Positions 61-15,806 of a stretch of DNA of 64,000 nucleotides are shown piece by piece (position 1 is the stretch's first letter; every line of letters begins with the position of its first letter). The DNA is from Cyanobium sp. CH-040. Lineage in GTDB: Bacteria; Cyanobacteriota; Cyanobacteriia; PCC-6307; Cyanobiaceae. The stretch spans positions 1-64,000 of the forward strand of contig NZ_JAGQCJ010000014.1 in NCBI RefSeq assembly GCF_024346135.1, written 5' to 3'. A program made the position numbers and the translations under genes. Below the pieces are notes generated by a model. It had not been told where the DNA came from, made no database searches, and saw nothing but the letters and a program-made list of their open reading frames with translations.

Positions 61-127
61 CGATGGACAGTCTGGTGGTCAGGACGTGACCCTTGTCGAC
101 TTGTCCTCAGAATCGGGGGAACCCCAC
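1..127 (-). mobile_element. End of an IS3-like insertion sequence, cut by the window edge
   Basis: The reading frame of hsdR stops matching its family at about position 128. The sequence from there to the window edge is a short non-coding leader followed by the start of an IS3-type OrfA. The putative element end, read on the minus strand, begins TGGGGTTCCCCCGATTCTGA near position 126. This is the only end visible, so neither the matching inverted repeat nor a target duplication can be checked. Assignment to IS3 rests on the first 20 residues of OrfA. Confidence 0.65.
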
Positions 128-1669
128 CTGGCGCATCGAGTACACGTGAAAAGGCTCGGGCCGGTTGGTGTCGCTGGCCGGCTCGGCGGGGTTGGGGCGT
201 CTGCCGAACAGCTCCAGCGTCTTGGCTTTGGGGGTAGCGGTGAAGGCCACGAAGGTGATGCCGGTGTCCTTGGCGCGGGCGGCCATCTGGGCGGCCAGCA
301 CGTCGTCCATGCTCACCTCGCCACCATCGTTCAGCTCGGCCAGCTCTTCTCCGCTGAGCACGGCCTTGAGTTTGGCGGCGGCCTCTCCGCTCTGGGAGCT
401 GTGCGCCTCATCGGCGATCACGGCGAAGCGTTTGCCCTGGGTGGCCGACAGCTTGCGCACCTCCTCCAGCGCGAAGGGGAAGGTCTGGATGGTGCAGACC
501 ACGATCTTCTTGTCGCCGGAGAGGGCCTCGGCGAGCTTGCTGCTCTTGCTGCCCTCATCATTGGTGATGCTGGCCACCACGCCGGTCGTGCGTTGGAAGT
601 CGAACAACGCCTCCTGGAGCTGGGTGTCGATCACGTTGCGATCGGAGACGACCAGCACCGTGTCGAACACCTTGCGGTTGTCGTCGTCGTGCAGTTCGGC
701 GAGGAAGTGGGCAGACCAGGCGATCGACTTGGTCTTCCCTGAACCGGCCGAGTGCTGCACCAGGAACTTGCCTCCCGCACCCTCAGCCAGCACAACAGCC
801 AGGAGCTTGCGGGTGACATCCAGCTGGTGGTAGCGGGGGAAGACCACCTCCTTGATCTGCTTCTTCTTGTCGCGGCTGGCCACCAGATAGCGGCCAAGGA
901 TCTCCAGCCAGCTGTGGCGTTCCCACACCTCCTCCCAGAGGTAGCCGGTGCGGTAGCCACGCTCGGGGTCGAGAGGGTTGCCGGCGCCGCCATCGTCGCC
1001 ACGGTTGAAGGGAAGGAAGGTGGTGCCTGGGCCGAGGAGCTTGGTCGTCATGCGCACCTCCCGGGTGCTCACGGCGAAATGCACCAGGGCACCACTGGGG
1101 AAGGAGAGCAGCGGTTCTGGGCTCTGCCCCTTGGGCCTGGGGTTGCGATCGAAGCGGTACTGATCCACCGCATCGTCGATCGACTGCGTGAAGTCGGTCT
1201 TCAGCTCGGCCGTGGCCACCGGGATGCCGTTGAGGAACAGCACGAGGTCGATGCTGTTCTCGTTGTGAGTGGAGTAGCGCAGCTGCCGCATCACCCTCAG
1301 CCGGTTGGCGGTGTACCGGCTGAGGATCTCGGGGTTAAGGGCGAGGGCCGGCTTGAACTGGGCCAGCTGCAGCGGCTTCCTGAGGCCAAGGAGGTCGATG
1401 CCCTGGCGGAGCACGTCCAGGGTGCCGCGCTGATCCAACTGAGCCCGCAGGCGGTTCAGCAGGGTGTCGGCCGCATTGGCGCCATGATTCTTCTGCAGCA
1501 CCTCCCAGGCGTCGGGTTGCGTTTCCTGGACCCAGGCCAGCAGGTCGGCGGGGAAGACAGCACGGGCTCGGTCGTAGGCAGCGGCATCGCCCTCGGCATA
1601 GAGCCAGCCATGAGCACGCAGGTGCTGAGCGATCTCGGCTTCGAAGTTGATCTCCTTGTGAAGGCTCAT
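107..1669 (-). pseudogene. hsdR: Type I restriction endonuclease HsdR, truncated by an IS insertion
   Basis: The frame encodes the N-terminal half of a type I R subunit, the ATP-dependent translocase and nuclease of the restriction complex. Visible parts are a PD-(D/E)xK nuclease core (D141, then AELK at about 154-157), Walker A AGSGKT at 308-313, DEAH at 420-423 and FTATP at 476-480. Family members continue past 'PFHVYSMRQ' for several hundred residues. Here the match stops at residue 514, and six foreign residues from the IS end lead to a stop at 107-109. The second RecA lobe, the helical domain and the C-terminus are missing, so restriction should be inactive. The start ATG overlaps the preceding DUF4268 stop codon as ATGA, showing translational coupling in one operon. 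Confidence 0.85.
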
Positions 1670-2610
1670 TGGTGCCCCACCGTGAGGGTCTTCAGCACAT
1701 GCCGTAGGGCCTGCTCCAGCTGGGTCATTGCTTCAACCAGCTTCGCCTGAATGGCTGGCCACTCCTCCTCGGGCGATCGATAACCGCCTGGGAGATCAAT
1801 CCGGAGGCGACAGGCACGGCGACTGTCGAGTCGCTGCCAACTGACCGGAAAGCTAATGGCGTTGTCGATCTGGGCCTGGGAGACCAGTAGCTCATCGAAG
1901 ATCCGAGTGTTCTCCTCCTCAGCATCCTTACCGCGATCGATGTACAGTTCTGCTCCGCACTCGCTTTGGGTGACGACGTAATTCAGGTTCAGCCCTCGGA
2001 TGCCTGAAGAGACACCAAGCCATGAGTAGGAACCTGGAGTGATGTGGGAATGAAGCTTTGCGCCGGGGTGTGCGACCAGAGCAGTCCACCAACGCTTGCG
2101 GATGTCGTATCGCTCCGCCAACTCCTGCTTGGCTCGCCCCGTTTCCTTCGCCTCTTCTGATGGGCCGACGATCAAGGTGAGGAGAGGTGCTGCAGGTGAA
2201 TCGCCAATCCGCACAGCCTCGACCTTCACTAGATAGAAGTCCGCATTGCCCGACTCATTCAGCCAAGCCATGGCAGCAACGTGTTCTGGCCTAGGTTCGG
2301 AAACGATCCAGATCCCACCCCTGGCGCTTCGGGCGGTGAGGTAGGTGATGAGCTTGCCCAGGTGGTCGTGGTTGCTCTTCTCAAGTTGGTTCTCGATCAC
2401 ATAGGTCGTGCCATCCTCGTCCTCAGCGACGAGATCAATGCTGAACGAACCCGCTGCCTGCTCCCGATCTGCCGTGACGAGATTGAGATCGAGGGAATCG
2501 TTGAGAATGTCGATGTTCTCCTGTAACCATTGGGTGAAGTCGTACGCTTCATGTTTCCAAACCTCACGCAGAGGAACCCGTTGGAGCTTGCCGATCGATG
2601 CGTGGATCAT
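1666..2610 (-). CDS. DUF4268-type, nuclease-like protein inside a type I RM operon
   Basis: This 314-residue protein has an N-terminal domain resembling PD-(D/E)xK nucleases: a strand 'SFSIDLVAED' with a key Asp, then 'TYVIENQLEKSNHDHLGK' supplying Glu and Gln in place of the usual ExK (roughly residues 54-86). The C-terminal half, from 'KRWWTALVAHPGAK' onward, fits the DUF4268 family. Proteins of this family recur beside type I restriction genes, but I know of no established role for them. It overlaps hsdS upstream and hsdR downstream by 4 bp each, so it is co-translated with the complex. A nuclease or accessory DNA-binding role is inference. Confidence 0.75.
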   Translation of the reverse strand: MIHASIGKLQRVPLREVWKHEAYDFTQWLQENIDILNDSLDLNLVTADREQAAGSFSIDLVAEDEDGTTYVIENQLEKSNHDHLGKLITYLTARSARGGIWIVSEPRPEHVAAMAWLNESGNADFYLVKVEAVRIGDSPAAPLLTLIVGPSEEAKETGRAKQELAERYDIRKRWWTALVAHPGAKLHSHITPGSYSWLGVSSGIRGLNLNYVVTQSECGAELYIDRGKDAEEENTRIFDELLVSQAQIDNAISFPVSWQRLDSRRACRLRIDLPGGYRSPEEEWPAIQAKLVEAMTQLEQALRHVLKTLTVGHQ

Positions 2611-3968
2611 GCGGCAACCTCAGCTGGAACGACACCACGCACGTCGATCTGGCCGCTAACGGCGGCGGAGATCAGAGCGGAGCGGCGCTCCTGCAGGAGG
2701 GCAACAGCTCTGGAAGCATCTGTCATCAGGTCATCAAGGTCCTTTGTAATAGCGGCAACCTTGTCGACGATTGCGTCTTGCTCACACAACGGAGGCAGAG
2801 GAGTGACGAGAGTTTTCACATCAGGCATTCCAATTGTCTTAAGAGTGGCCCCTGCCGTCAGTCGATCAAGCTCCGCAGTCATCGAACGCAAACGCAATAA
2901 CAGGTATTCAGGCCTTAGTTCCTCACTGCAAACCCAAGCGATGAAGTGTTGGGAAACTGCCATTGGCCTAGTGGTTATGGCACAGCGGCCGATAGTTGCA
3001 TCGCGTGAGAACACAACTACTCGTTCGGGCAATAGCCTAGCGGAAGAATTTTCTATGCCAAGCGAATTGATCGAGTAAGCTGTTTCGGTGATGTAGTCAT
3101 GATCTCTAAGATAGCCAGTGTCATTCAGGGACACCCAGGGGATGTCGCAGTTCTGCCAGTAGGCATTAATCTTCCGATCAGGTGTATGGCCACTCTCCAT
3201 GCGAGCAACGTGCTTCATTCGCTTGATCTCCCAATGCTCCGGCACCTTCCCCAGCCACTCCACCCCTGAGTCCTTCATAGGCACGTCTGGGTTCAACCCC
3301 TTGGTGACGGCATGGGAGATCGCGGCCTGGCGCTTCTCTTGGAGCAGCTCGATCAGCTGCTGCTGCTCGGCGATCAGTGCGTCGATCTTGGCGGTTTCGT
3401 GGTCGAGGAACGATAGAAGCTGGATCTGCTCGGCTTTCGGCGGAAGGGAAAGCGCAATTCGACCAATTATTCCTGCATTTAGGTTTGCAAGCCCAGTCGT
3501 AGAACTTGAATAGTAGTTAAACTGATGTCGAGAGATGTCACTATTTAGCCAGTACCAAACAAGTTTTGGAAGCAACATCGAGCAGGGTGTGATTCTCTGC
3601 ATGAAGTTCGAGTAGCAACAAGACAGCGCCTCGACTTCGTCTGTGACAAGGGAAGTCTTTCCAATGTGTAGACTGCTACCGCTTGATTTTGTAATCACCA
3701 GGTCCCCAGACTTAAGGGATGCTCCTTTTTTCTCTTTCTCGGACAGATAGCGATATGCCGGCTGATCGATTACCCATAGTCCGTCAACGGTCTGCTCTGT
3801 AGAGCGCAGAACAATTGTGTCACTCCTTCCTGTCGGCTCCTCTCCCCAAACCCCACCATTATTAGCAGTCAAACAGTTCTTGAGTTGTTTGACCTCCCAA
3901 TGCTCCGGCACCTCTCCCAGCCACTCAACGCCGCTATCCTTGTATGCCGGATACCTGGGAAAGCTCAT
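2607..3968 (-). CDS. hsdS: Type I restriction-modification specificity subunit HsdS
   Basis: HsdS chooses the bipartite DNA target for the methylase and restriction complex. The 453 residues show the classic duplicated layout: '[18 protein letters not shown]' opens the first target-recognition domain near residue 10, and '[18 protein letters not shown]' opens the second near residue 230. Each half ends in a conserved helical spacer containing '[17 protein letters not shown]' or '[17 protein letters not shown]'. The length is normal for the family. Base composition dips in the variable domains, as expected for parts exchanged by recombination. It overlaps hsdM and the DUF4268 gene by 4 bp each. 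Confidence 0.93.
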
Positions 3969-5989
3969 GCCGACAGCCCTCCGATCATCTCCAGGATCCG
4001 ATCCGTCACCTGCTTAAGCTCTGCGTCGATCACCTCCAAGGGCCGGGGTGGGGTGAACACATAGAAGTGGCGGTTGAAGGGGATCTCGTAGCCGACCTTG
4101 GTCTTGTCATGGTCGATCCAGGCATCCGGCACGTGGGGTAGCACCTCCCTTGCGAAGTAGGTCTCCACGTCTTCGGAGAGCGGCACGTTCTCCGTATCCC
4201 GCAGGCTACTGTCGGCCTGTGGCTTCCCCTTCGCCTTGCCCCGCTGGCCCAGCACCACGTTGCCGGCCTCGTCGCGCAGAGGCCGCTCCACCGTGATTGT
4301 GCGGTAGCCGAAGTCCTCGTTGCGGAAGATCTTGCTGATGGGCTTGCCGTCCTTCTCCACTTCCTCGAAGCGACCGAAGACCTGGGTGATCTCCTCGATG
4401 TGCTCAGGGCTCAACTCCTTGCGCTTGCTGCCCAGGCTCTTGCGCATCTTCTGCCAGAAGCCGCTGGCGTCGATCAGCTGCACCTTGCCCTTACGCGCTT
4501 CAGGCTTGCGGTTGGACAGGATCCAGATGTAGGTGCTGATGCCCGTGTTGTAGAACATGTCGGTGGGCAGAGCCACGATCGCCTCCAGCAGATCGTTCTC
4601 CAGCACGTAGCGGCGGATCTCGCTTTCGCCTGAGCCAGCTCCCCCGGTGAACAGTGGCGAGCCGTTCAGCACGATGCCGATGCGGCTGCCGCCTTCGCTC
4701 GCTGGGCGCATCTTGCTGATCAGGTGCAGCAGGAACAGCAGTGACCCATCGCTGACCCTAGGCAGGCCGGGGCCGAAGCGACCCTCGTAGCCCATCAGCT
4801 CGGCTTGCTTGCGGATCTCCTTCTCGATCTTCTTCCAGTCCACCCCGAATGGTGGATTGGAGAGCATGTAGTCGAACAGCAGCTCCTGAAGGCCGTCGTC
4901 GCTGAGCGTGTTGCCGAAGATGATGTTGCGGATGTCCTGGCCCTTGATCAGCATGTCGGCCTTGCAGATCGCGTAGGACTCCGGGTTCAGCTCCTGGCCG
5001 TACATCACCAGCCGGGCCAGCGGGTTGTGCTCCACCACGTGCTCCTCGCTGACGCTCAGCATCCCGCCGGTGCCCACGGCCGGGTCGTAGAGGGTACGCA
5101 CCACACCCGGCTTGCTGAGGGCGTCGTCGTCTTCGATGAACAGCAGGTTCACCATCAGCCGGATCACCTCCCGGGGGGTGAAGTGCTCCCCGGCGGTCTC
5201 GTTGGATTCCTCAGCGAACCTGCGGATCAGCTCCTCGAACACGGTGCCCATCTCGGCGTTGCTCACCACCTCCGGGTGCAGGTTGATCCCCGCGAAGCGT
5301 TCGGTGACCAGGTAGAGCAGGCCGGCCTTGGCCAGCTTGTCGATCTGGGTGTGGAACTCGAAGCTCTCGAAGATGTCCCGCACGGCGGGGGAGAACCCCT
5401 GCATGTAGGCCCGTAGGTTCTCGCCGATGTGGTCCTGGTCCCCCATCAGCCGCTTCATGTCGAGCGGTGAGGTGTTGTAGAAGAGCAGGCCGGCCCTCTT
5501 GAGCAGGAACGGCTCGGGGTTCAGGCCGGAGGCTTCCCGCAGCTCCTTCTCGGCCAGCACGTCGGCCTTGGTGGCCTCCAGCACACAGTCCAGCCGCCGC
5601 AGCAGGGTGAACGGCAGGATCACCTTGCCGAAGTCGCTGCGCTTGTAGTCGCCCCGCAGCAGGTCGGCGACTGCCCAGATGAAAGAGGAGAGGTTCTGCT
5701 TGCCGGTGGGCTGGGGGCCGACTGGTGCTGAAGCTGCCGTCATGCTGCGCTGAGGAGTGGACTGAACCGAGGGACCTAGTGAGGGTGGCGTGGCCGCCCC
5801 AGCCAGCGCAACAGAGCCCCCGCGCCCCCTGCCGTTCACCACGATGCCCTTGGCCACCAGCTCGGCCTTCACAGCGTCGTAGGTGGCCTCGTCCCAGTCC
5901 AGAAGCGCCCGCAGCTTGCCGTTCCCGGCTTGGCCCTGCAGGGCCTCCAGGGCACCGAGGAACTCGTCGAGCTGCTCCTGGTCGGGCAT
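3965..5989 (-). CDS. hsdM: Type I N6-adenine DNA methyltransferase HsdM with N-terminal winged-helix-like extension
   Basis: The methylase subunit transfers a methyl group from SAM to adenine at sites chosen by HsdS. Counting from the chosen ATG (674 residues), the SAM-binding motif DPAVGTGGM lies at 302-310 and the catalytic NPPF at 378-381, preceded by the usual helical domain from about 99. Residues 1-64 form a separate small domain ending in 'GRGRGGSV', which looks like the winged-helix-type extension seen in some type I subunits. The frame stays open upstream to 6220, but those codons read like non-coding DNA, so the ATG at 5989 is preferred. No strong ribosome-binding site precedes it. 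It is the first gene of the operon, and modification may persist although restriction is broken. Confidence 0.9.
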
Positions 5990-6534
5990 CAGGTGGGGGG
6001 TGACCCTGTGGGCATTTTGAGGAGGCCGGACGGATCTGCCTGCGATCAGAGCGACTTTGTCGGTTCCCACTGCATGCAGATGGGCAACCGCTAATCCCTG
6101 ATGGATCTCTGAACCGACGCGTCCATCCAAACAGAGTCCTGGGCCATTCTGGTCAGCATTGTTACTCTTCTGATCCATTAAATTCTCAGGCTCGGGGGCA
6201 ATGACACTGCCTAAGGCCATTCAGGCCATTAAGGCACAGCGCCTTGCAAGACTGCAATTATGGCCGACCTGATCAAAGTCTCAATCCGAGGCATCGCTAT
6301 AGAGCGAGTGACAAGACTCTTGAGTTAGACCTGAGGCAATTGACTATGAGGTATAGCCCCTTCTCTTGACCAGAGAAATAACGGCAGCGATAGTCTCAGT
6401 CAATTCGGATCTATCTGGGGCCGCTTATTTCTGCTAGCTTCTGGCTATTGCAGCAGATGCATCCTCGGCCGGGCGCACCCTTCTGGTCGACGACTTTTGC
6501 TGTCGGCAAATAAGCACTCTGTCCTAATTGAGCT
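5990..6534. other. Divergent intergenic region between hsdM and the primase-helicase gene
   Basis: About 545 bp without a convincing gene. It must hold the promoters for the restriction operon (leftward) and the replication gene (rightward). The part nearest 6535 is AT-rich. A TTGACT at 6340-6345 resembles a -35 box, but no well-spaced -10 was found. No repeats or palindromes stood out. Confidence 0.5.
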
Positions 6535-9399
6535 ATGACTGAACCTGGTAACGACACCTCATCTGAATCTGAAGAACACAATTCATCTTTATTTGAAGGG
6601 GAGCGTGTCTTCGACCTCTGGAAGCGAGGGGTCTTCCCCTCCCACTGGGCGATCATTCCTGTAGCAGGAAAGGACACCTACGTCTCAGGCTGGCAGAACG
6701 AAGCACTGTCTGAGAAGCAGTGCGAGTCTGAATACCGCGCCAAGAGCGCCTATCGCGGGCTCGGGGTGGTCACCGGTCGCCTCTCCCATGGCCTGGTGGC
6801 GATTGACATCGATGGGCCCGAGGCTGACGCGAGGCTGAAAGCCGTGCTCGGGGATGCCTACGAGCCGCTGGGCGAGGAGACGACGATGTCGTGGACGTCT
6901 GGAAAGCCAGGTCGGAGGCAGATTCTGTACCGGCTTCCGGAGTTCTTGTATAAGGAACTGGATCACGTCAATAAGTTAGTTTTGCGTCTGGACGGCACTT
7001 GGGGGCTGGAGCAGGACGACCTCCAGACCCGCAAGGCGGCTGAAAACGACTACGAAGAGGTCGTTATACGCTTCAACAAGTGCCAGAGCGTTCTTCCAAA
7101 CAGCCCGCATCCAGATACCAAGAAGCCGTACCGGTTCCTGAACTACAACGGGGGCAAGCCTGCTGAGGCCCCAGCCTGGCTGTGCGATGTGATGGGCTCG
7201 TTCCGCGAGCCTGTGGAGTTCCTCTCCGAGGAGGATCTGCGTGACCTGACCGACGAGGTTGGAGAAACCCTGCTGCCGCCGCCTCAGATCCGAGGCTGGT
7301 TCTTCAAGAAAGACGGCCCGGTCCAGAACGCATTGATACCGAGGCTGGAGGATCTGATCTTCAAGCACCCGAACTTCAAGAGGTGGAAGCCTCGCGGGGG
7401 TTCCCGGCCTCAGATGATGAACTACTGCCCCTGGCATGGTGGCTCGTCGGGGACAGCGTTCCAGTTCAACCCCGAGAACGGTTGCTGGGACTGCAAAGCC
7501 TGCGGGGTTGGTGGTGACGTCCTCGACTTCGTCCACAAGGTGGAGACCGGGGACATGGCTGTGGGCAAACCCACGGGCCCCGCCCTGGAGAAGTACGTCC
7601 AGCGGATCGTGACCGAACTCGGGTTCCACTACCCGGATGATGCGCTGCCGGTGCAGAAGACCACCGAGGTGCCGAAGGTCACCATGGGGGCGGATGAGTT
7701 CCTTGAGCAGTTGCTCAAGATCTACAAGGACAACAAGAACCCGGCTGTCCAGTTGGACAAGATGGCCCTGCTGGCGCTGGAAACAGGACGCCGGATGTCT
7801 GGCTTCCAGTGCATGGAGGCTCTCAACGAGTACCGCTACTTCAAGAAGAGCGAGGAGGCCAACAACGCTGAGTGGTGGGAGGGGGTCCAGAGACTCAACC
7901 CGGTGATCCCCGATCTACTGGTGAAGCCCTCCCAGGTGATCCTCCATGCCGCAGGCGGGCTCGGGAAGACCTCAACCTGCCTGGCCCTGGTCAGAGCGAT
8001 CCTGAACCGCAAGACGATGAAGGTCCGGGGCCTCGATGTCGAGGCAGCCGAAGGCAACGTCCTCTGGATCAGCAACGACCAGTCGGTCGGAAAGCTGCTG
8101 CAGGACTGCGAGGACAATGATATTGACTACAAGTCACATCGGTTCATTGTCAAGAGCTACTTCCAGCTCAACCATGTGCAGAAGATGCGGGAGTGGATCC
8201 TCAAGTACAAGCCAATCTTGGTGGTTGTAGACAGCCTCGGGAGTGCCTCCACCCGCATGCAGGCCGAGGAGCACAAGAAGGCGTTCGCCATGCCTCTCTA
8301 CGAGTACGCCGCGATGAACGGCAGCAACGACGAGGACGGCTTCCCGGCGACCTGCTTCTTGTGGATCCACCACGACAACGCTCAGGGAGAGCTTCGGGGG
8401 ACCCGCTACCTGGCCGCAGCGGTGGATGAGACCTGGCACCTCCGGAAGCCCACGGACGAGGAGCTGGAGAGCCTCAGGGAGCGGGGCAGGAAGGCGGAAG
8501 CCTGCCGGATGATCCAGATCGGGAAGTCCAGGCTCGGGAGGGAGGGGGACCTGTTGGTCAGCGAGAGGAATGTGGACTTTGAGTTCACGTTGGATGACTA
8601 CACGCCAACGCAGAGGAGGGAGAACAACGGGCAGGGGGATCCGGATCCTTACACGATGGTGCTGAAGGTCTTGAAAGACAGGACCGAGGATCCGGAGAAT
8701 GATCCAATGACGGTCGCTGAGATCTATGACGAGATCAAGTCGATGTGTATCGGGCTCGGGTTGAAGGTCCCTTCAGACAGGAGCGTGAGGAACTGGGTCG
8801 GCCGGTGGGTCAAGAAGGGGCTGGTGAAGGAAGGGAAGAAGCGGGTCTCAGGTGAGAAGGGGCGGCCAGCCCCCACCTACCGGGTCAACAGCTCCTCCCC
8901 CCTATATATGCACGATTATGAAGGTATTTTTTCCGAAAATACCCCAAATCAATTGGGGGAGAAGGGAAGTGATTTTCGGAACGACCCCAATTTCGGAAAG
9001 GCAGATCTTTCCGAAAATGCCCCTGATTCCGAAAATCCCGAGGACGTTCCAAGCGTCTCGGGTGGGACTCCCGAGACCGGTCAGGCATTTTCGGAAAGGG
9101 CGGCCGAAACCAGTGAGACCTGGGAATCGTTCCGTAAATCAGATCCCACGCCCCGCAATGGATCTCAGGCAATTTCGGAAAAAGGAGCGGTAGAGGCACA
9201 TATAGGGGGGTCTGGCCCCGAGAACGGCGAGTTCTACCCGGATGGGGTCACCCCGGTCTGGACCCCTGGTGGGGCGCCCATGACCGAAGACCAGTTCATG
9301 TGGGAGTTCTTCTACGACGACATGCTTCGAGATCTGGAAGCGGAGCGGCGGGCTGAAACCAAGAATGGGGAGGCTTTGACACAGTCGAGCTGTGGGTGA
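6535..9399 (+). CDS. Primase-polymerase / zinc finger / RecA-like helicase replication protein
   Basis: This 954-residue protein combines replication domains typical of mobile elements. Residues about 30-230 fit a bifunctional primase-polymerase (Prim-Pol) domain, with 'GLVAIDIDG' giving the two metal-binding Asp residues (91 and 93). Residues 298-323 form a CHC2-like zinc finger (CPWH, then CWDCKAC). A RepA/AAA_25-type ATPase follows, with Walker A AAGGLGKTS at about 472-480, Walker B ILVVVDS at about 561-567 and a sensor-like 'HHDNAQGELRGTRYLAAA'. A winged-helix-like part lies near 700-770, and the last 190 residues are low complexity. It probably primes and unwinds the element's own DNA. 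A tyrosine recombinase gene follows, suggesting an integrative element or satellite. The low-complexity tail coincides with the repeat array at 8927-9183. Confidence 0.85.
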   Translation: MTEPGNDTSSESEEHNSSLFEGERVFDLWKRGVFPSHWAIIPVAGKDTYVSGWQNEALSEKQCESEYRAKSAYRGLGVVTGRLSHGLVAIDIDGPEADARLKAVLGDAYEPLGEETTMSWTSGKPGRRQILYRLPEFLYKELDHVNKLVLRLDGTWGLEQDDLQTRKAAENDYEEVVIRFNKCQSVLPNSPHPDTKKPYRFLNYNGGKPAEAPAWLCDVMGSFREPVEFLSEEDLRDLTDEVGETLLPPPQIRGWFFKKDGPVQNALIPRLEDLIFKHPNFKRWKPRGGSRPQMMNYCPWHGGSSGTAFQFNPENGCWDCKACGVGGDVLDFVHKVETGDMAVGKPTGPALEKYVQRIVTELGFHYPDDALPVQKTTEVPKVTMGADEFLEQLLKIYKDNKNPAVQLDKMALLALETGRRMSGFQCMEALNEYRYFKKSEEANNAEWWEGVQRLNPVIPDLLVKPSQVILHAAGGLGKTSTCLALVRAILNRKTMKVRGLDVEAAEGNVLWISNDQSVGKLLQDCEDNDIDYKSHRFIVKSYFQLNHVQKMREWILKYKPILVVVDSLGSASTRMQAEEHKKAFAMPLYEYAAMNGSNDEDGFPATCFLWIHHDNAQGELRGTRYLAAAVDETWHLRKPTDEELESLRERGRKAEACRMIQIGKSRLGREGDLLVSERNVDFEFTLDDYTPTQRRENNGQGDPDPYTMVLKVLKDRTEDPENDPMTVAEIYDEIKSMCIGLGLKVPSDRSVRNWVGRWVKKGLVKEGKKRVSGEKGRPAPTYRVNSSSPLYMHDYEGIFSENTPNQLGEKGSDFRNDPNFGKADLSENAPDSENPEDVPSVSGGTPETGQAFSERAAETSETWESFRKSDPTPRNGSQAISEKGAVEAHIGGSGPENGEFYPDGVTPVWTPGGAPMTEDQFMWEFFYDDMLRDLEAERRAETKNGEALTQSSCG
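8897..9210. repeat. Long-range inverted repeat bracketing an iteron-like array
   Basis: CCCCCCTATATATGC at 8897-8911 and GCACATATAGGGGGG at 9196-9210 are inverted copies matching at 14 of 15 positions, about 285 bp apart. Both lie inside the coding sequence of the replication protein and exactly flank the cluster of TTTCCGAAAA-type motifs. Coincidence of both signals in one 314-bp stretch suggests a DNA-level function such as an origin or regulatory site, but this is inference. Confidence 0.7.
8927..9183. repeat. Iteron-like array of eight TTTCCGAAAA-type motifs
   Basis: The motif TTTCCGAAAA or its reverse TTTTCGGAAA, allowing trimmed ends, occurs at 8929-8940, 8973-8981, 8990-8999, 9008-9017, 9027-9036, 9088-9097, 9130-9138 (one mismatch, TTCCGTAAA) and 9172-9183. 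Four copies point each way. The centres of copies two to five are 18 bp apart; three of the other gaps are 41-43 bp. The array sits in the low-complexity coding tail of the primase-helicase gene. Iterons within or beside a rep gene are a known feature of plasmid and phage origins; calling this an origin is inference. Confidence 0.75.
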
Positions 9400-9747: not shown

Positions 9748-10332
9748 ATGCCCAAGGTCTGTCGATCGGGCCAGGCTCGGACACTGACGCCCGCTGAGCT
9801 TGAACGGCTGGTGATGGCGATTCCATCCATGCCTGTACGGACCCTCTGCCAGGTCATGCGCTTCACAGGATCGCGGGTGCGGGAGACGACGCTCCTCACT
9901 TGGGCATGCCTGCATCACGATCGCATCGTCTTCAGGCGCGTGACCACCAAGACCAGCACCACCAGGGAGCCCCTGATCGGGCCGAGGCTGGCTGCTGAGC
10001 TCGTGGCCTACAGGGAGTGGTGGTGCACACTAATCGGAACCGCTCCAAGGCCCTCCGAGTACGTTTTCCCTTCCAGGACATCTACGACACAGTCGATCAG
10101 CCCTCAGGCGGTCGACAAGGCCCTGCGGAAGGCCATCAGGGTGGCAGGTCTGCCAACTGGTTGCAGCACCCACACTTTCCGGAGAAGTCTGGCGACTACC
10201 ATGGCCATGCAGGGGATTGATTTGAAAACCGTTCAACGGTTTACCGGCCACACAAACCTAAACATGCTGGCTCGATACATTGATGTTTCCCCCGAGCGCG
10301 AACTGTCAGCGTTAGCAACTATTGGGGGGTAA
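9748..10332 (+). CDS. Short tyrosine recombinase (catalytic domain only)
   Basis: The 194-residue protein is essentially the catalytic domain of a phage-type integrase. Active-site positions are visible: Arg in 'TGSRVRE' (43 or 45), HTFRR (H142, R145), GHTNLN (H168) and the nucleophile candidate in 'LARYID' (Y177). The usual N-terminal core-binding (SAM-like) domain is absent; proteins of this size exist, but many integrases have 300 residues or more. It follows the primase-helicase gene by 348 bp on the same strand, so it likely belongs to the same element. Only about the first ten residues precede the catalytic fold, so truncation from a longer gene is possible. Confidence 0.85.
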   Translation: MPKVCRSGQARTLTPAELERLVMAIPSMPVRTLCQVMRFTGSRVRETTLLTWACLHHDRIVFRRVTTKTSTTREPLIGPRLAAELVAYREWWCTLIGTAPRPSEYVFPSRTSTTQSISPQAVDKALRKAIRVAGLPTGCSTHTFRRSLATTMAMQGIDLKTVQRFTGHTNLNMLARYIDVSPERELSALATIGG

Positions 10333-10474: not shown

Positions 10475-11846
10475 GGAGTTTGCAAAAAAGCCCTTTTTTA
10501 GGTCGCATCTTTCCTTCCCGCGGTCTGATTTCTGCCTGACTCAGCTGATCTAGCTGTGTCAGGTGTCCGGAGCCCTCAGTTGCGCTGTCTGGGGGACTAT
10601 TTCTGCTCCTCCGCTGCCACCGTCTGGCCACACCTCTGGGCAACTGGATGTTCATGACGCCTGCAGAGTAGGATTGAGAGGGTTGCCCAGCCCGATGAGG
10701 TTGTAGGCGATCACGTACAGGCCAAATACGGCGCTGACGTTCTCCTGGCCGCGCAACTTGAATTGCCGCAGGCCTGCGCACTACTTGATCCAGCCGAAGA
10801 CCTTCTCGATCCCCCGGCGGGCGTTGATCGACTGCGTGTAGCCCTTGTGACCGGTGGTGCGGCCATCGATCGCCGAGCCGCCGGGGCGAGCGGTGTTCTG
10901 GGCCACATGCGGCGTCACGCCCAGCCGGCGCATCTGGGCCACGAACCCTTGGGTGTCGTAGTTCTTGTCGGCGCCGATAGTCTTCTGGTGGGCCCCGCTC
11001 AGATCCGCGGCCATCGCCCTAGCCGCCTCCCGCTCGCCGTAGCCGTCCGCCAAGGTCACGCGACAATCAACGATCAGGTCATGGCGGTTGTCCATGAGCA
11101 CGTGGCCCCGACAGCTGAGAACTGCTGGATGGACGATGGACTTGCGGGCCAGCAGGGCGTCGGGGTCGGAGCTGGAGCGGTGGGTCTCGTTGCTGAGCTT
11201 GACGCCGCGAAAGTCTCCTTTGGCTCGCTTCTTCCCTGCTTTGGGTTGTCCAAATCCCTCTCCCGGCCCCGAGGGTGGTGGCGGTGGGTCGTCCTAGCCA
11301 TCGATCCGCTCCAGTGAGGCATGGGAGGCCCAGGCCTGCAGCAGGGTGCCATCCACCGAGAAATGCTCGTTGCTGAGCAGCGGTTTCACCTCCGGAGCCC
11401 CCATCAGCTTGTCAAGGAACCTGCCCATCACCTGCTCGTTCAAGAGCCGCTCACGGTTCGTGGTGAACGTCGTCGGGTGCCAGATCGGATCATCGGGACT
11501 CAACCCCACAAACCAGCGGAACAACAGGTTGTAGTTGAGCTGCTCCAGCAACAACCGTTCGGAGCAGATCCCGTAGAAGGCCTGCAGCAGGGAAGCCAGC
11601 AGCAACTGCTCCGGCGGAACCTATGGCCGGCCCTCGAAGGGGGAAAGCTGGCAGAAGGTGGGGTTGAGGCGATCGAGGGCCTGATGAGCCAGCTTCCAGA
11701 TCCGCCGCAGTGAATGGTTGGCCGGGATCCGCTCCTCGATCGACACGTAGGAGAACAGGGAGCCGCTGCGCTCCTGTTGACCTCGCATCAACGACTGAGC
11801 AGTTATCCCATTTTGGCAGTGGCGGCGGGGTGTTTCCGCGAACTCC
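10475..11846 (-). mobile_element. Complete but inactivated IS5-like insertion sequence
   Basis: Inverted ends GGAGTTTGCAAAAAAGCCC (from 10475) and GGAGTTCGCGGAAACACCC (reverse strand from 11846) agree at about 14 of 19 positions. The dinucleotide TA flanks both sides (10473-10474 and 11847-11848), consistent with a short target duplication. The element is 1372 bp and holds one transposase frame on the minus strand. Confidence 0.75.
10652..11788 (-). pseudogene. IS5-family transposase with three in-frame amber codons
   Basis: One uninterrupted frame runs from ATG at 11788 to TGA at 10652-10654 (378 codons). It is broken only by TAG codons at 11621-11623, 11294-11296 and 10781-10783. The protein matches a common IS5-family type: 'LFRWFVGL' early, 'FSVDGTLLQAWASH' around the first catalytic Asp, then 'IGADKNYDT' and 'RRGIEKVFGWIK' near the second Asp and the Glu. 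No frameshift or deletion was seen. The affected codons sit where relatives would be expected to carry Ser, a polar residue, and Gln. The element should be unable to move by itself. Confidence 0.8.
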
Positions 11847-14588: not shown

Positions 14589-15806
14589 GGAAACCCTGGA
14601 AAACCCAGCCTGACCACGGGATAATGGTGCTGTGATCACAGGTCAGGACTTGGTTGATGGGCGGTAAGCAGCTGGGATTTGGCGATTACGAGCAGACCAC
14701 CGCCAAGAAGCGCACCAAGCGTGAGAAGTTCCTGGCTGAGATGGACGCGGTGGTGCCCTGGCAGGCCCTGATCGCTCTGATTGAGCACCACTACCCCAAG
14801 ACCAGCGGCAAAGGCGGCCGTCCGCCATACCCGCTGGCCACAATGCTGCGGATACACCTGATGCAGCAGTGGTATTCGCTCAGTGATCCAGCGATGGAGG
14901 ATGCCTTGATCGAAGTGCCGACGATGCGCCGGTTTGCGGGAATCGACATGCTCAGCGACCGGATCCCCGATGAGACGACGATCCTGGCCTTTAGGCACCT
15001 GCTGGAGAAGCACAACCTCGGCGAGCAGATTTTCGAGACCGTCAAGGTCCATCTCAGGGAACGGGGTATGGCCATGAAGCAGGGCACGATCATCGATGCC
15101 ACCTTGATCGCCGCCCCCAGCTCCACCAAGAACAAGGCTGGTGAGCGGGATCCGGAGATGCACCAGACCAAGAAGGGCAACCAGTGGTATTTCGGCATGA
15201 AGATCCACGCGGGCGTGGACAAAGACTCAGGCCTGATCCACTCCGTCGTCACCACTGCCGCCATCGTGCATGACCTCGCCCCAGCAGCTGAGCTGCTGCA
15301 TGGTGGGGAAAAGGTGGTCTACGCCGACGCTGGTTACCAGGGAATCGCCAAGAGGCCGGAGATGGCAGGCAAGACAACGGAGTTTCGGGTGGCCATGCGT
15401 CCCGGTAAGCGGCGAGCACTGCCCGATACACCTGATGGCCGGCTGGACGATTTGGTGGAGACAGCCAAGGCCCACATCCGCGCCAAAGGTGAGCATCCAT
15501 TCCGGGTGATCAAGCAACAGTTCGGCTTTCAGAAGACCCGCCTGCGCGGCCTCGCCAAGAACCGCTGCAAAATCAACGTGCTGGCAGCACTGACGAATCT
15601 GTTCCTCGCACGGCGTCAGTTGCTTGTGTCTTCATGATCAGGGGAGTGGTGTGCCCGTATGAGGCCATTCACGGGTGCAGGGCAGCGCAAAAGGGGCATA
15701 AGATCACCTTGATTGAGCACAGATCAGTCCCTGAGCACAGCCGTAGGAGCAATCCGGCGGTGTCTGATCTCAGGAGCCGCTCAAGCCCCTGTTGCTTAGA
15801 GCTTCC
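14589..15806 (+). mobile_element. Intact IS5-like insertion sequence with CTAG target duplication
   Basis: CTAG at 14585-14588 and at 15807-15810 bracket a 1218-bp element. CTAG fits the YTAR target duplication known for the IS5 group. The ends begin GGAAACCCTGG and, on the reverse strand, GGAAGCTCTAA, a weak inverted match. The transposase gene is intact. An unusually long 169-bp non-coding segment follows it, of which 157 bp recur as the solo end at 13727-13883. Confidence 0.8.
14657..15637 (+). CDS. IS5-family transposase, apparently intact
   Basis: A DDE transposase of 326 residues, the normal size for the IS5 group. Recognisable parts are the N-terminal DUF772-like region ('GGRPPYPLATMLRIHLMQQW', 'SDPAMEDAL'), the first catalytic Asp in 'IIDATLIAAPSS', the 'GMKIHAGVDKDSGL' strand, the second Asp in 'VVYADAGYQG' and a C-terminal helix 'EHPFRVIKQQFGF' that would carry the Glu. 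A TTG lies directly before the chosen ATG. No stop or frameshift was seen, so the element may still be mobile and could have donated the related end nearby. Confidence 0.9.
   Translation: MGGKQLGFGDYEQTTAKKRTKREKFLAEMDAVVPWQALIALIEHHYPKTSGKGGRPPYPLATMLRIHLMQQWYSLSDPAMEDALIEVPTMRRFAGIDMLSDRIPDETTILAFRHLLEKHNLGEQIFETVKVHLRERGMAMKQGTIIDATLIAAPSSTKNKAGERDPEMHQTKKGNQWYFGMKIHAGVDKDSGLIHSVVTTAAIVHDLAPAAELLHGGEKVVYADAGYQGIAKRPEMAGKTTEFRVAMRPGKRRALPDTPDGRLDDLVETAKAHIRAKGEHPFRVIKQQFGFQKTRLRGLAKNRCKINVLAALTNLFLARRQLLVSS

Follow-up and report, generated by a model that had tools for sequence, protein, structure and literature searches.

A putative iteron origin at the 3' end of a cyanobacterial Prim-Pol/helicase gene, and two-module covariation between its winged helix and its repeats

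We have found that a primase-helicase gene of Cyanobium sp. CH-040 carries, inside its own 3' end, an array of short repeats (iterons) in both orientations that very probably serves an integrative or phage-like element as its origin of replication. The stretch of DNA analysed comprises 64,000 nucleotides (positions 1 to 64,000 of contig NZ_JAGQCJ010000014.1; hereafter the window), and the gene (6535..9399, forward strand) encodes a 954-residue protein with Prim-Pol, zinc-ribbon, AAA_25 (RecA-fold) helicase and C-terminal winged-helix parts, which we propose to be a self-acting initiator that would bind the array encoded within its gene or, in some relatives, lying just past it. An earlier note on this DNA had suggested an origin embedded in its own initiator gene. 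Chance tests, arrays in homologs, and a C-terminal winged helix that matches the repeat all support that suggestion, and from them we infer binding and origin function in the cell; it is the winged helix and its match to the repeat, features that the note did not name, that make the case strong.

The iteron array in the window

The array consists of eight ATTTTCGGAAA-type sites. Iterons 2, 3, 6 and 8 lie on the forward strand (8972..8982, 8989..8999, 9087..9097 and 9171..9181) and iterons 1, 4, 5 and 7 on the reverse strand (8930..8940, 9008..9018, 9026..9036 and 9129..9139, the last being a degenerate copy, GTTCCGTAAAT), which gives the order -++--+-+. The eight copies, four in each orientation, are thus present as the earlier note had described them, and so is the regular spacing of four consecutive copies, the middle four being 17-18 bp apart when measured between TTCCGAAA starts. 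All seven exact copies of TTCCGAAA in the window (0.74 expected) fall within 8931-9180, and the 9-mer TTTCCGAAA occurs seven times in the entire 2.9-Mb genome, five of them inside the array.

This clustering is not reproduced by shuffling. Seven copies of TTCCGAAA were reached in none of 20,000 synonymous shuffles drawn from the codon pool of the whole gene (maximum 4), none of 20,000 drawn from that of the tail (maximum 6) and none of 20,000 shuffles of codon order (maximum 2), so that the objection foreseen in the earlier note, motif counts no higher than in codon-preserving shuffles, does not arise. Nor did any 8-mer reach seven copies in shuffled tails (3,000 shuffles with each of two shuffle types). 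A clustering of short repeats at an initiator gene that exceeds chance is one of the features by which iteron origins are recognized, and it is present here.

Arrays in relatives and accessory elements

Our comparison covered 15 homologous loci from twelve further genomes of the family, ten named genome-contig loci (from Vulcanococcus limneticus, Synechococcus sp. CS-1329 and BO 8801, and cyanobacterial metagenome-assembled genomes (MAGs)) and more than 80 IMG/VR contigs. Scans of viral and genome contigs with a single protein gave nothing, and the homologs in these contigs were recovered with a 12-row alignment. In a search for the same motif, TTCCGAAA itself proved not to be shared by the homologs; the pattern emerged once each homolog was searched for a repeat of its own. 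At the same place in the gene, homologs carry a lineage-specific repeat in 5-10 copies on both strands, against shuffle maxima of mostly 3-5, and the absence of repeats from homologous genes, which would have spoken against an origin, is therefore not what is seen. Ten phage contigs of 57-72 kb have 45 exact iteron matches in all, of which 44 lie at the Prim-Pol gene.

The layout of these arrays recurs. One form has six sites in the order -+-+-+, with gaps near 43, 30, 40, 29 and 44; a second has seven sites in the order -++-+-+, with gaps of 41, 12, 20, 73, 20 and 42, and is the closest to the order in the window; a third has seven to nine sites spanning ~305-317 bp. At three loci of the third form (L022, L081 and L086) the first and last sites stand at exactly -388 and -82 from the stop codon while the repeats themselves differ (ANTTAACGACA, GGTTTTGGTCA and GGTTTTGCTCA), and we conclude that all copies of an array have changed together. 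The earlier expectation that the motif would be kept while the protein tail drifts therefore holds for the drifting tail and for the layout, but not for the sequence of the repeat, which has been replaced, changing along with the winged helix; this outcome is other than the one foreseen, and a stronger one.

The array of the window falls in codons 788-892, and in most homologs it likewise lies within the open reading frame. At L043, however, it straddles the stop codon, and at L045 and L076 a six-site array lies entirely past the stop codon, with both flanking brackets (described below) and a CCCCGAG...CGGGG-type dyad retained. Since these two arrays are wholly outside the reading frame, selection acts on the DNA rather than on the protein, as the earlier note had supposed. 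That the peptide tail is what is selected, with the DNA repeats as a by-product, might be entertained on the grounds that the array is coding here and that some tail peptides recur (PED/PEG). The out-of-frame arrays already contradict it; moreover, the iteron copies of the window occupy all three reading frames and both strands, so that no single peptide repeat can explain them, and the tail (residues 788-921) is predicted to be disordered (predicted local distance difference test, pLDDT, below 50 in the AlphaFold model). We regard this explanation as scarcely credible.

The same out-of-frame arrays, being past the gene, might instead suggest an operator, for autoregulation or for a downstream gene, with the winged helix acting as a repressor, as winged helices often do. 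We consider this very unlikely, given that the array in the window is 2.4 kb from the gene start and ~550 bp ahead of the next gene, that the sites lie within a transcribed gene in most homologs, and that the six to nine sites, spread over 150-350 bp in a fixed two-way layout, are more than a usual operator comprises.

Further DNA elements accompany the iterons (all coordinates on the forward strand). The array is bracketed by CCCCCCTATATATGC (8897..8911) and its inverted copy GCACATATAGGGGGG (9196..9210), and its centre holds a second element, CCGAGGACG (9038..9046), and a dyad, GTCTCGGG-N7-CCCGAGAC (9055..9077). The flanking inverted repeat reported in the earlier note is real, with 14 of 15 positions matching, but only mildly unusual taken by itself, such a pair arising in 14 of 300 synonymous shuffles (~5%). 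Relatives repeatedly show equivalent brackets of alternating purines and pyrimidines: the mean longest alternating run is 8.4 to the left (Mann-Whitney p 1e-11) and 7.6 to the right (p 0.004) of arrays, as compared with 5.7 in control stretches of genes. On the coding strand, CCGAGGNCG has a density of 1.75/kb in homolog tails and of 0.12/kb elsewhere. We note that a CCCCGAG...CTCGGGG-type dyad and CCGAGGNCG are found near the last iterons, in the window and in homolog tails, and are kept outside the frame at L045 and L076. At some loci the automatic repeat finder picked a second element, CCCCGAGG, and there the iterons were assigned by hand.

We also note that distant AAA_25 helicases with a winged-helix-like C-terminal part (L034, L036, L032 and L051) have mixed-orientation arrays in their 3' tails, with nine copies of GGAGTGTCA, thirteen of TTGTCACGG, seven of TTGATTCCA and seven of CACCTAACAC, respectively. 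These arrays have in part a 9-bp direct spacing; one is in the genus of the window itself and one in a Symploca MAG.

Covariation of the winged helix with the repeat

Pfam assigns to the protein a Prim-Pol domain (residues 37-215; 6643..7179; PF09250, E 9e-16, above the curated cut-off), a zinc ribbon (residues 294-338) and an AAA_25 RecA-fold ATPase/helicase domain (residues 452-588; 7888..8298; PF13481, E 9e-8), all on the forward strand. The AlphaFold model adds a C-terminal winged helix-turn-helix domain (residues ~704-786; 8644..8892; pLDDT 80), which contains the recognition helix PSDRSVRNWVGR (8770..8805), proposed to read the iteron's 3' half, and a wing, K-GRPAPTY, with an AT-hook-like GRP (8857..8880), proposed to read its 5' half (ATTTT). 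A sequence search against solved structures gave no match. In a Foldseek search the domain matched first the Bacillus replication terminator protein (RTP) in complex with DNA and then Orc1/Cdc6 origin-binding winged helices, at 15-21% identity and hence at the level of the fold only. That first rank might be taken to mean that the winged helix binds a replication terminus or a partition site; the similarity is generic, the origin binders Orc1/Cdc6 scoring almost equally, and fusion to a primase and a helicase fits initiation, so that we hold such a role to be highly improbable. Homologs (for example L008, L002 and L009) often end in an acidic/aromatic peptide, such as DPWAKFD, EDWSKYDEYFF or DTWEAFDAMFD, which may serve to bind a partner.

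Among 39 non-redundant homologs, the two halves of the repeat vary with two different parts of the winged helix. In partial Mantel tests that controlled for helicase divergence and for the other module, the wing is correlated with the 5' half (r = 0.50) and the recognition helix with the 3' half (r = 0.57), with 0 of 5000 permutations in each case, and the cross terms are nil (0.03 for the helix with the 5' half, -0.02 for the wing with the 3' half). The initiator thus has a DNA-binding domain that, computationally, matches its repeats, a second feature by which iteron origins are recognized. The correspondence can be read directly: KGGRP or QGGRP wings pair with GGTT without exception among the readable cases, which come from several separate clades; K-GRP wings pair with A/T-rich 5' halves such as the ATTTT of the window, DKP wings mostly with GCAA, RRP/RKP wings with TGAA and KAP/KTP wings with ACGA. 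Nature also provides swaps. Two loci of one Vulcanococcus limneticus genome (L043 and L044) have similar wings and different helices, and their iterons are one base apart (GGGACA/GCGACA); L091 and L082 have an identical helix and different wings, with the repeats ATTTACGGACA and GGTTTTGGACA, respectively.

Leave-one-out prediction agrees with this match. When each homolog was left out in turn and its near relatives were excluded (only helicase distances above 0.4 being admitted), the nearest wing predicted the 5' half at 54% identity, as against 29% for a random choice and 16% for the nearest helix, and at 89% as against 29% where a similar wing was available; the nearest helix predicted the 3' half at 85% as against 75% at random. 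At L076, where the unsupervised search had missed the array, the KGGRP wing predicted GGTTTT, and six perfect copies of GGTTTTGGTCA were found past the stop codon. Further loci were added afterwards. Of these, L195 (DKP wing) contains the predicted AGCAATGGACA. L209 (GGRP wing) has the predicted GGTTTG 5' half together with a new 3' half, and L212 (GR-GRP wing) has GAATTT, as in L023, although here the automatic nearest-wing rule chose wrongly. L168, L172 and L180 agree with prediction but are close to a training sequence.

We think it probable, on this evidence, that cyanobacterial integrative elements and phages have diversified their origins into dozens of private specificities by means of a two-module reader, in which wing and helix change independently, each resetting one half of the repeat, and in which the whole set of six to nine copies is exchanged together, their coordinates staying fixed. 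Several points weigh against this. The wing and helix intervals were fixed after inspection of the training table, so that the evidence, though strong, is not fully blind, in the Mantel test as in the predictions; where a wing or helix resembles none of those seen, prediction breaks down, as at L181, whose 3' half was predicted correctly and whose 5' half wrongly; and L214 and L226 have no clear array. Two other schemes were considered and set aside. A recognition helix acting as sole determinant gives a weak partial correlation with the whole motif (r 0.13), and the two modules are preferred to it; a one-residue helix code (K with G, R with T, E/Q with C) is contradicted by L072 and L075, which have R with G.

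Origin function, precedents and genomic context

How might such an array work? The C-terminal winged helix of the Prim-Pol/helicase would bind the six to nine iterons, arranged as two opposed sets, the wing (often AT-hook-like, GRP) reading the 5' half of each repeat and the recognition helix the 3' half. With sites of both orientations bound, the fused helicase would be loaded and activated, and the first primers would come from the fused Prim-Pol. Because the repeat of each lineage is private to it and is matched to that lineage's winged helix, related elements sharing a cell would not need to fire each other's origin.

Two observations do not favour an origin. There is no consistent AT-rich unwinding region: arrays are 48-61% G+C, with a lowest-G+C stretch that varies in place. 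An unwinding region in the array centre was looked for and not found, the centre being G+C-rich in the window; the lowest-G+C stretch near the array there, a 30-mer of 23% G+C that overlaps the left bracket, is a candidate melting site, and relatives show no consistent place for it. In addition, in none of nine testable phage contigs does GC skew change sign at the array; because a switch is not necessarily to be expected of temperate or recombining elements, we take this result to be uninformative and not contrary. The lack of a consistent unwinding stretch and the unswitched skew could be accounted for if the array, like P4 crr or a plasmid inc/handcuffing locus, were a second control site that kept copy number down, with the true origin at another place; in iteron plasmids, some of the repeat sites bound by the initiator do regulate replication instead of starting it. 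Nevertheless, no second iteron cluster was found in the host genome or in the ten phage contigs of 57-72 kb, and the extra conserved parts (brackets, dyad and CCGAGGNCG) are those expected of an origin. We therefore consider a control site unlikely, if less so than the other alternatives, and favour an origin.

The system works like several known ones and yet fails a defining feature of each one tested. In bacteriophage lambda, the iterons lie inside the coding sequence of the O protein that binds them (PMC7466680), and the likeness to ori-lambda is that of an origin inside an initiator coding sequence (here codons 788-892). O, however, is neither primase nor helicase, and the protein of the window has no lambda O homology (its Pfam domains are Prim-Pol, zinc ribbon and AAA_25 only); furthermore, the lambda origin is in mid-gene, beside an AT-rich tract, and its iterons are near-identical between phages, whereas the array described here has mixed orientations, lies at the 3' end of the gene and shows sequence turnover between lineages. 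Phage-inducible chromosomal islands (PICIs), including the Staphylococcus aureus pathogenicity islands (SaPIs), have a pri-rep-ori module with iterons directly 3' of a primase/helicase initiator gene (PMC6092414), but with two iteron sets flanking an AT-rich region; here the sets are opposed with no AT-rich centre, the array is usually inside the reading frame, and the domains are Prim-Pol and AAA_25. In phage P4 a single protein, alpha, combines a primase and a helicase with a winged helix by which the repeats of the origin are bound (PMC4234260); its primase is of the Toprim type, in contrast to the archaeo-eukaryotic primase (AEP) Prim-Pol, the RecA-type AAA_25 ATPase and the intragenic array found here. 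ORF904 of pRN1 and its relatives in phages (BIP-1) combine an AEP Prim-Pol, a helicase and a C-terminal winged helix, with the origin 3' of the gene (PMC4234260), but the helicase is of superfamily 3, as opposed to AAA_25 (RecA-type), and the origin is a stem-loop without iterons. An origin in an initiator gene and 3' iterons are thus known already, and the unusual part is the two-module series of matched protein-DNA pairs. We found no description of the system in the open-access literature searched, which leaves out most subscription papers.

In host genomes the Prim-Pol gene has a short tyrosine recombinase as its neighbour. That of the window has 194 residues, comprising the catalytic part only (9748..10332, forward strand), and at least five other genomes (L007, L010, L002, L005/L045 and L013) have a relative of it beside the Prim-Pol gene; this recombinase occurs also in genomes without the Prim-Pol gene. 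In viral contigs the Prim-Pol gene is followed by a family A DNA polymerase, a Dda-like helicase or a KilA-N protein, and genes for an exonuclease, an SSB-like protein and a deoxynucleoside monophosphate kinase are close by. The host and viral contexts are consistent with a replication module common to integrative elements and phages. In one contig of 58,368 bp (L112) the Prim-Pol gene spans both contig ends, which suggests a complete, circularly permuted phage genome. In the window, type I restriction-modification genes (HsdR-like, DUF4268, HsdS and HsdM; 107-6220) adjoin the element, whose left end was not found in the contig, which begins at these genes; downstream of the element lie a transposase fragment (DUF772; 11297-11605) and a DDE transposase (14654-15637).

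Work on iteron origins has usually dealt with single plasmids. In the present case a few conserved layouts are common to more than 20 distinct initiator/origin pairs, and the rules of initiator-origin recognition, as well as the emergence of new compatible replicons, thus become testable by swapping wing and helix. If the two-module reader is as we describe it, it would amount to a natural code, and a readable one, between the sequence of the winged helix and that of the origin. The pairs offer candidates for orthogonal replicons in cyanobacteria, and for many uncultured cyanophages sequence alone points to where replication probably starts.
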